Below, piece by piece: positions 21,200 through 25,530 of a stretch of 64,000 bases of DNA. The stretch comes from Streptosporangium saharense. Lineage in GTDB: Bacteria > Actinomycetota > Actinomycetes > Streptosporangiales > Streptosporangiaceae. Each line of letters starts with the position of its first letter. The stretch's first letter is position 1. The translations under genes were made by a program, and so were the position numbers. The notes under the pieces are model-generated. The model saw only the letters and a list, made by a program, of their open reading frames with translations. It was not told the DNA's origin and did no database searches. The stretch is taken from the NCBI RefSeq assembly GCF_014203715.1, contig NZ_JACHJP010000002.1, forward strand, positions 1,364,001 through 1,428,000. Direction: 5' to 3'.

Positions 21200-22473
21200 G
21201 GTTCCCCGGCGCCGTTCAGCAGGGCCCAGGAGCGGGCCATGGCGATGCGCTGCGGTGTCGTGGGATGAGACGCATAAAGCAGATATTCGATGATATTTGG
21301 GGACAAATCAGAGATGTTGGTGACGGCGAGCCGCTTCTGCATGGCGACGAACGTCGCGGGCTGCCTTGTCAGGTCCAGCGCGTGCGCGTCGGCACGGGCC
21401 TCGATGTGCCTGCTGACCACGTTCTGCGCAGGGCCCGACAGCACGGTCGCCAGGCTCAGCAGCCCCATCAGCAGCCCGACCGCCCGGGGATCGGCCGCCG
21501 AGGAGACGCCGGTGCGGCGCCGTACCGGACCGGCTGAGGTGATCAGGTAGAGCAGGCAGGCCCCGCAGGCGGCGCCGAGCGCTCCGACGAGCGTGCCGTA
21601 CAGCACGTCGCCCGCCTTGGCGTGGCCCAGCTCGTGCGCGACGACCAGCTCGACCTCGTCGGCGGGAGCGCGCAGCAGCGTGTCGTAGACCACGATCCTG
21701 CGGGTCGCGCCGAACCCCGAGACGTAGGCGTTGAGCGCGGTCGTGCGCCGGGAGGCGTCGGCCACGAGCACGTCCTCGACCGGGACGCCGTCCTTGGCCG
21801 CCATGGCGAGCAGGTCGGAGCGCAGCGCCCCCGCAGGCATGGGCTTGAAGTCGTTGAACAGGGGCTCGATCACCACCGGGTAGGCGAAGGAAGCCAGCAC
21901 CGTCAGCGCGAACGCCCCGACCGCCGCGGGCAGCCACCAGCGCCGGTAACGACGGGCAAGCGCGATCACGGCGACCACCATGATGGCCGTCAGCACGGCG
22001 CCGATCGCGGTGTTCTTGATCCGGTCGGCCGACCACGACCCCCAGGTCTGGGTGGACAGGCCGTACTCGCGCAGGTAGGTCTCCGACCACATGCCCAGCG
22101 GCCAGCGCAGGGCCGCCACGACCGCCGAGATCGCCAGCACCCCGAGCAGCGCCCGCAGCCACCACGGCCCCCGCAGGCGGCCGAGCAGCCGCGCGCCGAG
22201 CGGGGTCGCGACCAGCACCCCGGCCACGACCAGCGTCAGCCCCAGCGACAGGTAGGACGGCAGGCTCACCGCCGCGTCGAACGCCTCGGCCCTGGCGATC
22301 TGCTCCGGGCTGAAGTCACGGGCCGGATCCGGCGCGACGTACGGCGCCGCCTCGGGCAGCGCCCGCCACGGCGTGGTGAACGCGACGACGGCCAGTGTGA
22401 CCGCCCCGAGGACGGCCAGGGCGATCCCCGCCCCCCGCTCCCGTTTGGGCGTCTCCCGCGCACTCCGCGTCAT
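21196..22473 (-). CDS. M48-family membrane metalloprotease (Ste24-like)
   Basis: The 425-residue protein has several transmembrane helices (about 18-34, 70-90, 108-124, 158-172, 183-205). The zinc motif is H280-E-L-G-H284, with a third ligand in SRHIEARADAHAL. Length and topology resemble Ste24/CAAX-prenyl-type endopeptidases rather than HtpX. ATG at 22473 overlaps the stop of the upstream secreted protease (ATGA). A longer frame from 22503 lies inside that gene and has no site of its own. It sits in a coupled trio with pimB, hinting at envelope maintenance. Substrate unknown. Confidence 0.87.
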   Translation of the reverse strand: MTRSARETPKRERGAGIALAVLGAVTLAVVAFTTPWRALPEAAPYVAPDPARDFSPEQIARAEAFDAAVSLPSYLSLGLTLVVAGVLVATPLGARLLGRLRGPWWLRALLGVLAISAVVAALRWPLGMWSETYLREYGLSTQTWGSWSADRIKNTAIGAVLTAIMVVAVIALARRYRRWWLPAAVGAFALTVLASFAYPVVIEPLFNDFKPMPAGALRSDLLAMAAKDGVPVEDVLVADASRRTTALNAYVSGFGATRRIVVYDTLLRAPADEVELVVAHELGHAKAGDVLYGTLVGALGAACGACLLYLITSAGPVRRRTGVSSAADPRAVGLLMGLLSLATVLSGPAQNVVSRHIEARADAHALDLTRQPATFVAMQKRLAVTNISDLSPNIIEYLLYASHPTTPQRIAMARSWALLNGAGEP

Positions 22474-23252
22474 CCGAGTTCCCTCCGGAGATGGTCGCGC
22501 CACGCGGCGGTGAACTCCGCTCGCGACAGGCCCAGCGTGCTGTCCACATCGCTACCGTAAAGCCTCACCAGTCCCTTCTCGCCGAAGCGCTCCGCGACGT
22601 ACCGGCACGCGAGCCAGGCCTCCTCGTAGGCCTGCGCGAGTCTGGGTGAGCCGGGGGCGAAGTCGGCGAGGCCGGGCAGTTCCGTGGGCAGACGGCCGGC
22701 GCGCACCTCGGCGGCGAGTTCCGCGGCCACCGTCCGGGTGGGAATCCCCGCGTCCCGGTAGCCCACGTAGTCGGCGAACCCCTCGGAGAGCCACATCGGG
22801 ACCCGGCCGCCCCTGGTCGCCCCCGTCGCCAGATGGGTCAGCTCGTGGGTGATCACCACGTCCCTGCCGGTCCCGCTGAGCCTGGCGTATCCCGTGGGCA
22901 CCACGACCACCCGGTCCACGGTCGCCAGCGCGGCCAATCCGCCGGTCCGCCCCGCTCCCGCCAGGAGCGCGGCCTCCTCGTCGGTCGCGGGAACCACGAC
23001 CACCGCCCTGACGGGCCCCCAGACCTCGGCGATCGTACGGCAGGCGCGGTCGGCCCTGGCCGCGAGATCACGGAGTTCGGCGGGCGGGACGCGGTGTCCG
23101 ACGACGAGCGAGCGCTCTCCCCTGACCACCTCGGCGGCGCCCGGCCACAGGTCGCGGGCCGTCTCCGGCGTGGGCCTCGCCCCGCCGAGCCCGGCGCCCG
23201 CCAGCGCGAGCATCCCGGCGAGCACGGCGCGGCGCCCCTTCGGGACGGACAT
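22470..23252 (-). CDS. Secreted gluzincin-type metalloprotease
   Basis: The 260-residue protein begins with a basic stretch and a hydrophobic segment (about 8-24), consistent with a signal peptide or anchor. The peptidase-MA-like core has H136-E-L-T-H140, followed by W154-L-S-E157-G-F-A-D-Y, giving the third zinc ligand. Such proteins often act on the envelope. The stop overlaps the M48 gene start. TAGCAT ends 8 nt before the ATG, consistent with a leaderless message. No substrate can be named. It heads the three-gene unit ending in pimB. Confidence 0.78.
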   Translation of the reverse strand: MSVPKGRRAVLAGMLALAGAGLGGARPTPETARDLWPGAAEVVRGERSLVVGHRVPPAELRDLAARADRACRTIAEVWGPVRAVVVVPATDEEAALLAGAGRTGGLAALATVDRVVVVPTGYARLSGTGRDVVITHELTHLATGATRGGRVPMWLSEGFADYVGYRDAGIPTRTVAAELAAEVRAGRLPTELPGLADFAPGSPRLAQAYEEAWLACRYVAERFGEKGLVRLYGSDVDSTLGLSRAEFTAAWRDHLRRELG

Positions 23253-23343: not shown

Positions 23344-23949
23344 TCAGGCGCCGGGACGAACCGCTCCGGCGAAGGCGGACCTGTAGTACCCCTTCAGCGT
23401 CACGATCCTGACCGTCTTGCCACTGCTCGGCGAGTGGATCATCTTGCCGTGGCCGACGTACATGCCGACGTGGCCCTTGCCGTAGAAGAACATCAGGTCA
23501 CCGAGGCGCAGCTTGCTCCACGGCACCTTCTTCCTGACCGCGCGGTACTGGCTGCCCGTCACCCGGGGGAGGGAGATGCCGGCCTTGCGCCACGCGTACT
23601 GGACCAGGCCCGAGCAGTCGAACGCGCCGGGACCGGAGGCACCCCACCGGTACGGATCGCCGATCTGCTTCCTGGCCGTCGTCACGGCCGTCCTGGCCTT
23701 GGTCCGCTGCCGTGCGGCCCGGCTCATCGCGACCTTCGCCGTGCGCTTGACGCGAGCCTTCTTCGCGACCTTCGCCGTGCTCTTGGCCGTGCTCTTCGCC
23801 TGGACCGCGACCGCGGTCTCCGTTGTCGCCTGCGCTGTCGCCGGACCCAGTGCCACCGCTCCGGTTGAGGCGGTCAGCGTGAGGACGAATCCGCCCAGGT
23901 AAAGGCGGAAAAAGCGCGACAAACGGGGGTTTTGCAGGGTGGTAGACAG
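23344..23949 (-). CDS. Secreted NlpC/P60 peptidoglycan endopeptidase
   Basis: The 201-residue protein has an N-terminal signal peptide (hydrophobic LYLGGFVLTLTASTGAVAL, cleavage after Ala-x-Ala about residue 40) and a basic Lys/Arg-rich linker. The NlpC/P60 domain contains DC112SGL, H160 in GHVGMYVG and H172, the catalytic triad order of the family, which cuts peptide cross-bridges in peptidoglycan. I propose a CTG start at 23949: AAGGAG lies 5 nt upstream, whereas the TTG at 23922 has no site. A c-di-AMP riboswitch ends about 20 nt upstream. Family and export are firm; the start codon is inferred. Confidence 0.85.
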   Translation of the reverse strand: MSTTLQNPRLSRFFRLYLGGFVLTLTASTGAVALGPATAQATTETAVAVQAKSTAKSTAKVAKKARVKRTAKVAMSRAARQRTKARTAVTTARKQIGDPYRWGASGPGAFDCSGLVQYAWRKAGISLPRVTGSQYRAVRKKVPWSKLRLGDLMFFYGKGHVGMYVGHGKMIHSPSSGKTVRIVTLKGYYRSAFAGAVRPGA

Positions 23950-23971
23950 GATTTCTCCTTGGGACTTCCAC

Positions 23972-24118
23972 TGATGCCTACCGGGTTAGCTGACGGGTTC
24001 GGGCTGGGAAGACGCCCTACGACGAAGAACACGTCGATTCACCCCTGGCCACACGTCGAGGGCCGATGGTTCCCCGGCTCCGTGCCTCCTGGCTGCACGA
24101 ACTCGGCGGGCCGCCGCG
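23972..24118 (-). ncRNA. c-di-AMP riboswitch (ydaO/yuaA type)
   Basis: Read on the minus strand, the conserved blocks occur in order: GCCGAGTT, GAGCCGGGGAACCA (24080-24067), GGGGTGAATC (24045-24036), GTAGGGCG, and GAACCCGTCAGCTAAC followed by CCGGTAGGC (24000-23976). These match the ydaO consensus, whose ligand is cyclic di-AMP and which often precedes cell-wall hydrolase genes in actinobacteria. The aptamer ends about 12 nt before the AAGGAG site, leaving no room for a separate terminator. Translation-level control of the NlpC/P60 gene is therefore plausible. Boundaries are approximate. Confidence 0.93.
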
Positions 24119-24334
24119 GTGTGGGACCAAGCCCTTGGGGGAGCGGCGACCAACTGGATATCTATACGGACACCGGCCTTCGGGACCGGCATTCGACGCG
24201 GCGGCATGGCTTGCTCACCGCGACCGCCAGAAGGTACCCCGATTACCAAGTCCCGGCAAAGACCCCACCAAATCCCAAGGCCCCCGGGAAAGGGTTTCAC
24301 GTTTACGAAATGCCTGCTTGTGTGGCATCACGAT

Positions 24335-24396
24335 CTTATAAATATGACCCTTGTCACATTTATAATGATCTTCGGGAAAGACGTGGCTTATGTCAC
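24335..24396 (-). promoter_or_regulatory. AT-rich promoter region with two Crp-like sites
   Basis: In this strikingly AT-rich stretch, 24383-24396 reads GTGACATAAGCCAC on the minus strand. This is an exact match to GTG-N6-GNCAC, the Streptomyces Crp consensus, and it matches on both strands. A near match, GTGACAAGGGTCAT, lies at 24357-24344. TATAAG (24340-24335) can be the -10 box. Transcription would then run through about 210 nt of unexplained leader into the riboswitch. The region between 24119 and 24334 shows no gene. Confidence 0.6.
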
Positions 24397-24485
24397 ATAA
24401 ATCACATCACCAAACAGCTTTCCCGGTCTACGCTCCGGGGGCCGTACGGCTTGCTTCCCCCTCAGAACGCCCGGAAACGACGAAC

Positions 24486-24512
24486 GGCCCGCACGCGGAC
24501 AGCGTGCGGGCC
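24486..24512 (-). terminator. Hairpin terminator after RipC-like gene
   Basis: A perfect 11-bp stem (GGCCCGCACGC / GCGTGCGGGCC) with a 5-nt loop lies 29 nt beyond the stop of the minus-strand gene. Confidence 0.78.
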
Positions 24513-24540
24513 GACAGGCCAAATGCTCTCAGAGGCCCCG

Positions 24541-25530
24541 TCAGGGACGGACGGCCCCAACCAGGCGGCCGCCGTACGAGGAGAGGGGAACGACCTTGAC
24601 GACGTCCCCGGTCTGGGGAGCGTGGACGATCTTGCCGTCGCCCGCGTAGAGGCCGACGTGTCCCAGTCCCTGGCTGAAGAGGATGTCCCCGGGCTGCAGG
24701 TCGCTCAGCGAGACCTTGCGGTTGGAACCCCAGCTCCACTGCTCCCAGGTGGTGCGCGGCAGGCTCACGCCCCCGGTGCGCCAGGAGGCCTGCACCAGCC
24801 CCGAGCAGTCCCAGCCGTCGGGGCCCGTGCCGCCGTACCGGTACGGCTTGCCGATCTGGGCGAAGGCGAAGGACAGGGCGGCCCTGGCGTTGCCCGAGGC
24901 GGGGCCGTTGTACTGGATCCCGGCGCTGTTGGGGTCGCCGGGCCTGAAGGTGCCGAGGTCGCGCAGCGTCTTCGTCTGGATCTTGATCAGCTTCTCGACC
25001 TTCTCCTTCTCCTCGGCCAGTTCGTCACGCGTCTCGTCCGCGTCGGCCAGCGCCTGCTTGGCCTGGTCACGGTTGTCGCGCAGCGTCTTGGTGGCCTCGT
25101 CGAAGGCGTTCAGGGCCTCGGCCCTTGAGGCGGAGATCTGGTCGGCCGTGGCCAGGCCGCTCAGCACCTGGTTGGGGTTGACCTCACCGACCAGGTTCGG
25201 CCAGCCGACGACCCCGCCCTGGTAGGTGGTGACGGCCATGGTCACGAGGTCCTTGCGCAGACCCGCGACCTTCGCGGTCTGCTTCGTCAGGTCCTCGTTG
25301 AGGCCCTCGTACTTCTTGCGGGCCTTCTTCCACTTCTCGCCCGCCTGGTTGTACTTCTCGACGAGCTGGTCGGCCTGCTCGTTGAGCTTGGCCAGCTTCC
25401 GCTTGGTCTGCTCGATCGTCGGCTTCGGCGCGGCCGTCGCGCTCCCCATTGGAGCCAGGAGCAACGCCAGGGCCAGTCCCGCAGCCATCGGCACACGCAC
25501 GAACCCACCCGGCATACCCGCCACGGCCAC
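24541..25530 (-). CDS. Secreted coiled-coil NlpC/P60 hydrolase (RipC-like)
   Basis: The 329-residue protein has a signal peptide (cleavage near Ala-Thr-Ala-Ala, residue 34) and a long coiled-coil segment (about 36-195). The C-terminal NlpC/P60 domain has C242 in DCSGL, H291 in GHVGLY and H303 in KIVHAP. The architecture matches mycobacterial RipC (Rv2190c), in the same syntenic slot; RipC cleaves peptidoglycan stems under FtsEX control. The coiled coil would be the regulatory or FtsX-docking part. GTG at 25530 has GGGGAGG 7 nt upstream. TACTAT at 25570-25565 (minus strand) is a good -10 box. Confidence 0.9.
   Translation of the reverse strand: MAVAGMPGGFVRVPMAAGLALALLLAPMGSATAAPKPTIEQTKRKLAKLNEQADQLVEKYNQAGEKWKKARKKYEGLNEDLTKQTAKVAGLRKDLVTMAVTTYQGGVVGWPNLVGEVNPNQVLSGLATADQISASRAEALNAFDEATKTLRDNRDQAKQALADADETRDELAEEKEKVEKLIKIQTKTLRDLGTFRPGDPNSAGIQYNGPASGNARAALSFAFAQIGKPYRYGGTGPDGWDCSGLVQASWRTGGVSLPRTTWEQWSWGSNRKVSLSDLQPGDILFSQGLGHVGLYAGDGKIVHAPQTGDVVKVVPLSSYGGRLVGAVRP

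Follow-up and report, generated by a model that had tools for sequence, protein, structure and literature searches.

In the window analyzed here, a 64,000-nucleotide stretch of Streptosporangium saharense DNA, the gene for an NlpC/P60 hydrolase is preceded by a c-di-AMP aptamer that extends to the Shine-Dalgarno sequence, which is complementary to bases overlapping a conserved CTG that appears to be the start codon. The reading favored here, to which a probability of about one half is assigned, is that a Crp-influenced promoter is combined with a translational OFF switch in which the aptamer would lock the RNA beside a small hairpin, the clamp, formed by the Shine-Dalgarno sequence and the CUG. 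Control of an NlpC/P60 gene by a riboswitch together with a Crp-family regulator is already known, and this part of the arrangement is mostly expected and well conserved; the unexpected part is the conserved CUG start within a Shine-Dalgarno hairpin. By conservation, the joint input of cAMP and c-di-AMP on a wall hydrolase is extended across many genera of the family. The work on Corynebacterium glutamicum, in its accessible sections, left open how c-di-AMP riboswitches without terminators control actinobacterial translation; the question of translational control becomes directly testable once a clamp is defined and its CUG is seen to be conserved.

The product matched the NlpC/P60 domain PF00877 (2.7e-26, 92 bits against a cut-off of 23), and its best named match was from Streptosporangium canum with 75% identity. 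Residues C112, H160 and H172, which we take to be the catalytic residues, were invariant in all 22 aligned proteins. Read along the minus strand, the locus consists of an upstream NlpC/P60 gene, a GC-rich hairpin, site A, site B, the promoter, hairpins HP1 and HP3, the aptamer, the Shine-Dalgarno sequence and the CTG (Table 1). The GC-rich hairpin, as read from the sequence, might mark the end of the transcript of the upstream gene; it was not accepted by the terminator scan. The next gene downstream (22470-23252) has the look of a secreted protein of the Peptidase MA type, with a PF13485 score of 25.6 bits that lies below the cut-off of 32.4.

Table 1. Features of the hydrolase locus, in window coordinates.
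Feature	Position	Strand	Remarks
NlpC/P60 hydrolase gene, 201 codons	23344..23949	-	Apparent start CTG 23949-23947; domain match, translation
Clamp hairpin AGGA-GAAA-UCCU, 3' arm overlapping the apparent start codon	23948..23959	-	In 67/73 orthologs
Shine-Dalgarno sequence AAGGAG	23955..23960	-	Sequence
c-di-AMP (ydaO/yuaA) aptamer, RF00379	23960..24118	-	76.4 bits, cut-off 38
Predicted tail pseudoknot strand GGAAG	23965..23969	-	Complementary to CUUCC 24011-24007
HP3, hairpin directly before aptamer helix P1	24109..24151	-	Covariation
HP1, hairpin at the predicted mRNA 5' end	24197..24224	-	Covariation
Conserved weak promoter	24231..24259	-	TTGCCG 24259-24254, 17-nt spacer, TACCTT 24236-24231
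Site B, putative Crp-type, TGTGACAAGGGTCATA	24343..24358	-	Palindrome 11/12; centre about -126 from the predicted RNA start
Site A, putative Crp-type, TGTGACATAAGCCACG	24382..24397	-	Palindrome 10/12; exact GTG-N6-GCCAC within
GC-rich hairpin between both NlpC/P60 genes	24512-24486	-	Read from sequence
Upstream NlpC/P60 gene	24541-25530	-	

Searching 60 related genomes with the protein gave matches in 59 and yielded 30 loci (L007-L036). A script located 103 distinct places with the aptamer core CAGCTAACCCGGT(A/C)GGC, 18 duplicates having already been removed. From these, 17 loci obtained with a family-wide pattern (the aptamer core followed by AGGAGNNANYCTG), 12 aptamers of other genes at locus position 1500 or beyond, and the aptamer of another gene at L110 were left out. 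The remaining 73 leaders, to which all counts out of 73 refer, come from protein searches only and, as the set is defined by the CAGCTAACCCGGT(A/C)GGC core, comprise no orthologs with another core sequence. Among 80 named loci, the aptamer was upstream of the matched gene in 46 (45 plus L068) and absent there in 34, and it was also found upstream of the match in 10 (L148-L157) of 30 further loci from 28 genomes that were picked because the family-wide clamp pattern had missed them. The genera named are Streptosporangium, Planobispora, Sphaerisporangium, Nonomuraea, Herbidospora, Acrocarpospora, Planotetraspora, Microtetraspora, Microbispora, Spongiactinospora and Actinomadura.

The covariance-model search put forward as a check in the preliminary description placed the aptamer above the gathering cut-off, with a match at 24118-23960 to model positions 1-134 of 134 (E 5.8e-16); nowhere else in the 64-kb window did a match reach a gathering score. 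The almost complete ydaO-type aptamer of that description (23972-24118) is the same element, which proved to be full-length, the earlier span lacking the last 12 nucleotides. The last base of the match is the first base of the AAGGAG. Six RF00379-type aptamers were found in the genome, and among loci L007-L036 an aptamer above the cut-off was present in all 20 of the first relatives' leaders scanned and in 4 of the 10 remaining. In the tail pseudoknot, 98.9% of cells were paired across the 73 sequences; no two-sided change was found among them, and shuffles equaled the observed values. DisA is encoded in the genome (match of 8.6e-155). The sequence supports the identification of the element as a c-di-AMP riboswitch, with ligand binding presumed. 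No intrinsic-terminator-like site was detected in 23900-24560, and a terminator platform of the Bacillus subtilis ydaO type was therefore not found. The earlier suggestion that the aptamer may gate translation rather than a terminator fits this absence of an intrinsic terminator before the ribosome-binding site. At L035, L088, L170 and L173, two c-di-AMP aptamers approximately 800-950 nucleotides apart precede neighboring genes.

The CTG was kept in 72 of the 73 orthologs, the exception being L077, which has TTG in another context. The distance from AGGA to CTG in the 72 was 6 nucleotides in 69, 7 in two and 8 in one, and in 71 no in-frame ATG, GTG or TTG lies between the preceding stop codon and the CTG; L072 has an in-frame TTG eight codons before the CTG, within the aptamer tail. 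The peptide read from the CTG onward (L-S-T-T) is conserved across the 22 aligned proteins. These start-codon counts come from an analysis with the reading frame checked; an earlier codon-position test after the CTG, in which two of the 72 rows were out of frame, showed no more than a weak trend and carries no weight here. The frame-checked counts indicate that the gene appears to start at the CTG. The list of open reading frames, compiled with ATG, GTG and TTG, puts the start at TTG 23922, a candidate disfavored by the conservation of the CTG and by the 71 orthologs without an in-frame alternative upstream of it. Since such listing misses CTG, these hydrolases have probably been annotated with wrong N-termini. 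In the accessible part of a 2024 paper on M. tuberculosis (PMC11260477), translation in mycobacteria is said to start rarely at CUG, which was used there as a non-start codon, making a conserved CUG both more notable and more in need of proof.

The clamp comprises four predicted base pairs between the AGGA of the Shine-Dalgarno sequence and UCCU, the last two bases of which are the CU of the CUG. The pattern AGGA-N4-U(C/U)CU was found in 67 of the 73 leaders, placing the Shine-Dalgarno sequence and the start codon in a structure adjoining the aptamer, as expected of a translational platform. The loops were of the GNRA type in 63 (GAAA 32, GCAA 12, GCGA 11, GAGA 8), the remaining being GACG (two), GACA (one) and UUCG (one), and the pattern was missing in L077, L079 (with a longer stem, GGGA/UCCC), L088, L112, L150 and L156. 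Two of the four loop bases vary; the U and C before the CUG hardly vary. This contrast, and the retention of the shape with different loops in relatives, speaks for the hairpin. The folding energy was about -3 to -4 kcal/mol, with 0 kcal/mol for the UUCG variant, both GACG variants and one GCAA variant (G-U) when folded alone. These variants and the ortholog alignment speak against the hairpin: no pair of the stem showed a two-sided change in the alignment, in which shuffles equaled the observed values. In the whole family, the aptamer core followed by AGGAGNNANYCTG was found in 131 of 341 genomes and 23 of 68 genera, with none in the reversed control among the matches listed; the loops among the matches listed all read GNRA, the last A being fixed by the pattern. 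In a sample of the class, the pattern of aptamer tail plus clamp occurred in 16 of 41 genomes of the same family and in 1 of 353 other genomes. A role of the clamp as a genome-wide initiation element was rejected, AGGANNNNTCCTG occurring 67 times versus 71 in the reversed control; two of the 67 places are at riboswitch leaders, those of the window and of the contig-7 paralog.

Folding gave values of 0.125 for the unpaired Shine-Dalgarno sequence and 0.144 when the pseudoknot strand was blocked; the clamp is thus predicted to be closed in either case, and no switching is predicted by folding. Two mutually exclusive conserved folds were not found, the sole alternative examined being the pairing of the pseudoknot strand with the coding region. 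An extended hairpin obtained on folding the window, in which GUGG of the tail pairs with CCAC of codons 3-4, was discarded, as GGAAG paired with the coding region at 0.648 versus 0.618 with shuffled coding sequence in 71 leaders. Pairing of GUGG with CCAC would be in competition with the tail pseudoknot, and for that reason it would have suggested an ON switch.

The promoter resembles the sigma-70 consensus weakly and was identified by its conservation: a TTTGC-N15-21-TANNTT element was present in 68 of the 73 leaders, with 0.08 expected after shuffling. A consensus promoter scan of the region found nothing. The predicted RNA start, seven bases past TACCTT, is the first base of HP1 (24224). 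Two-sided changes were found in 10 of the 16 pairs of HP1 and HP3 in 54 of the 73 sequences, amounting to 67 two-sided cells versus a shuffle mean of 13.2 (none of 500 shuffles reached 67) and a maximum of 12 after sliding of the partners; kinship can inflate such counts and is retained in the slid-partner control. The strongest argument for this start site is the agreement between the position predicted from the promoter and the beginning of the covarying RNA. The approximately 210 nucleotides between promoter and aptamer that were previously described as unexplained shrink to a structured leader of about 105 nucleotides with HP1 and HP3, since the conserved promoter is nearer the aptamer and the remainder is DNA upstream of it. 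Relatives share a GATCTT block approximately 20-25 nucleotides before the -35 box, possibly the site of a further regulator; the window itself reads differently in this region (24260-24340).

The exact GTG-N6-GNCAC site of the preliminary description is present as site A, and its near match corresponds to site B, which is the better palindrome and is better conserved. GTG-N6-GNCAC is the consensus of the Streptomyces-type Crp operator. The best match to TGTGAC-N4-GTCACA scored at least 10/12 in 70 of the 73 upstream regions (0.25 expected from shuffles of single letters), and a second, separate site of at least 10/12 was found in 39. All 68 promoter-matching leaders have a site centered 116-122 nucleotides before the end of the -10 box, with a score of at least 10/12 at that place in 67 (L041 scored 9) and an expectation of 0.04 of 68. 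In the 8.5-Mb genome, TGTGACNNNNGTCACA with at most one mismatch occurred at 17 places, site B among them, versus 1 in the reversed control. The results describe a conserved palindromic site resembling TGTGA-N6-TCACA that is rarer than chance, as expected of a Crp operator. Four proteins with a cNMP-binding domain are encoded in the genome, one of which matched solved Crp/Fnr-family chains, presumably M. tuberculosis CRP, at 2.8e-87 and 3.1e-87. We regard sites A and B as genuine Crp-type sequences and as putative operators to which Crp would bind.

According to the accessible sections of the published report (PMC9960051), nlpC (cg2402) of C. glutamicum encodes an NlpC/P60 peptidase under the control of a c-di-AMP OFF riboswitch that is most likely translational, and sites for GlxR (Crp family), MtrA and EsrR were reported in its promoter region. 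The view of NlpC/P60 genes as new targets of such dual control is therefore not supported. The two systems share an RF00379-type aptamer before the gene for an NlpC/P60 wall peptidase, a reported Crp-family site upstream and no canonical terminator; however, C. glutamicum belongs to another actinobacterial family, and MtrA and EsrR control is added there. The OFF direction and the translational mode assigned here are borrowed from nlpC by analogy. In the Streptomyces rpfA leader (St-Onge 2015, 2017, as described in PMC9960051 and PMC10117811), a c-di-AMP riboswitch and a cAMP input likewise act together on the gene of a wall-lytic enzyme, although Rpf is lysozyme-like rather than NlpC/P60, and premature transcription termination was reported in the available text of a review (PMC10117811). 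Inputs of cAMP and ppGpp besides c-di-AMP were reported for S. coelicolor (PMC9960051). Leaders resembling ydaO are described on seven hydrolase genes of S. coelicolor and six of S. venezuelae (PMC9960051, PMC10117811), and six ydaO leaders, five of them transcribed, are described before secreted hydrolases and a transglycosylase in S. lividans (PMC8079986). The ydaO (kimA) leader of B. subtilis has the same aptamer family and is an OFF switch, but it has a terminator platform and precedes a potassium importer gene, neither of which is found here (PMC9960051). For genes under riboswitch control, no description of a conserved CUG start or of a clamp of this kind was found in the open-licence literature, covered mostly as titles and abstracts.

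In the proposed mechanism, transcription from the weak promoter would probably be influenced by cAMP-Crp at the two upstream sites, and the mRNA would begin with a hairpin and carry the c-di-AMP aptamer reaching the ribosome-binding site. At low c-di-AMP the 30S subunit would load and melt the weak 4-bp clamp. At high c-di-AMP the folded aptamer and the tail pseudoknot, the GGAAG strand of which ends five bases before the AGGA, would lock the RNA next to the clamp and exclude the 30S subunit. The clamp would in this way take part in switching, and the wall hydrolase would be made when c-di-AMP is low. It is tentatively proposed, at somewhat less than even chances, that the arrangement is an expression platform for c-di-AMP riboswitches not found described in the literature covered. 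The CUG would be fixed by the need of its CU, within UCCU, to base-pair with the Shine-Dalgarno AGGA in a tetraloop clamp just behind the tail pseudoknot, such that RNA structure and not initiation strength would dictate the non-canonical start across much of the family.

The clamp and the CUG could instead be a fixed throttle holding a dangerous hydrolase low, with the riboswitch leaving the clamp unchanged. With no conserved alternative pairing found, and the clamp predicted to be closed whether the pseudoknot strand is free or not, this remains a strong rival, and lineages with decayed aptamers (L165, L167) retain AGGA-ACUG-UCCUG. However, the position of the clamp immediately after the aptamer tail is fixed and, as noted, AGGANNNNTCCTG is no commoner in the rest of the genome than its reversed control, and a throttle is considered possible though doubtful. 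Rather unlikely is a riboswitch acting on transcription, in which ligand binding would make transcripts end early although a canonical terminator is lacking, the outcome reported for rpfA (PMC10117811); no terminator-like site lies between promoter and gene, the aptamer ends at the Shine-Dalgarno sequence, and the C. glutamicum riboswitch is reported to act on translation (PMC9960051). Translational gating beside the clamp is the reading preferred here, and since the rivals concern different steps, the confidences placed in them overlap.

Distances of -126 and -166 are unusual for Crp activation, which counts toward the palindromes being bound by another regulator such as MtrA, or by Crp to no effect. 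MtrA and EsrR sites are also reported at C. glutamicum nlpC (PMC9960051), but the fixed position of the TGTGAC-N4-GTCACA palindrome and the very close match of the Crp homolog to solved Crp/Fnr-family chains (2.8e-87) make this distinctly unlikely. Least probable of all is translation beginning at the AUC before the CUG or farther downstream, for example at TTG 23922. That TTG is an open start in the window and in L007-L011, but it is present in 5 of 72 orthologs, a count that includes the two out-of-frame rows, and ATG, GTG and TTG are absent from codons 2-13 in 60 of the 72 and from codons 2-21 in 48. In addition, the CTG stands at a constant distance from the Shine-Dalgarno sequence, and most orthologs have ATC or ATT as the preceding codon, L029 having GTC.

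A second NlpC/P60 paralog is located on contig 7 of the same genome (L006 1501-1730), with counterparts at L182-L193 and L195. The aptamers of these paralogs are divergent, scoring 36.9 to 63.3 bits; their cores read CAGCTCACC or CAGCTAACC, they contain a long insertion, and they are followed by an AGGA-N4-NNNU clamp at CTG or TTG. In the paralog of the same genome the aptamer scored 40.7 bits and is followed by AGGA-ACGA-UCCUG. The 13 tails from this and 12 other genomes have CTG in 10 and TTG in 3, some imperfectly paired, with ACGA, ACCA, AUCA and AUCG loops; a fourteenth locus, L194, resembles L077 in type. An in-frame ATG 15 bases upstream in these tails makes the start of the paralog uncertain. 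It is conceivable that the second paralog has a variant riboswitch with an altered ligand response.

The leaders of L165, L167 and L029 contain aptamer-like pieces in which the complementarity of Shine-Dalgarno sequence and CTG is still present; none had an Rfam match up to E 1, and those of L165 and L167 were recognized as aptamer-like remnants by eye. On contig 12 of the same genome (L003 1640-1710), an aptamer is followed by a Shine-Dalgarno sequence with pairing potential (GAGG/CCUC) and then by an 18-codon open reading frame from ATG, possibly a leader peptide, before a longer frame for a secreted protein. In another family, the c-di-AMP leaders of genus g41 (L209, L217, L218, L221, L225, L226, L227 and L229) were seen by eye to have their GTG start enclosed in another kind of small hairpin, of the ACGCC...GGCGU type, and hairpins at the start codon behind a c-di-AMP aptamer may be a wider theme.
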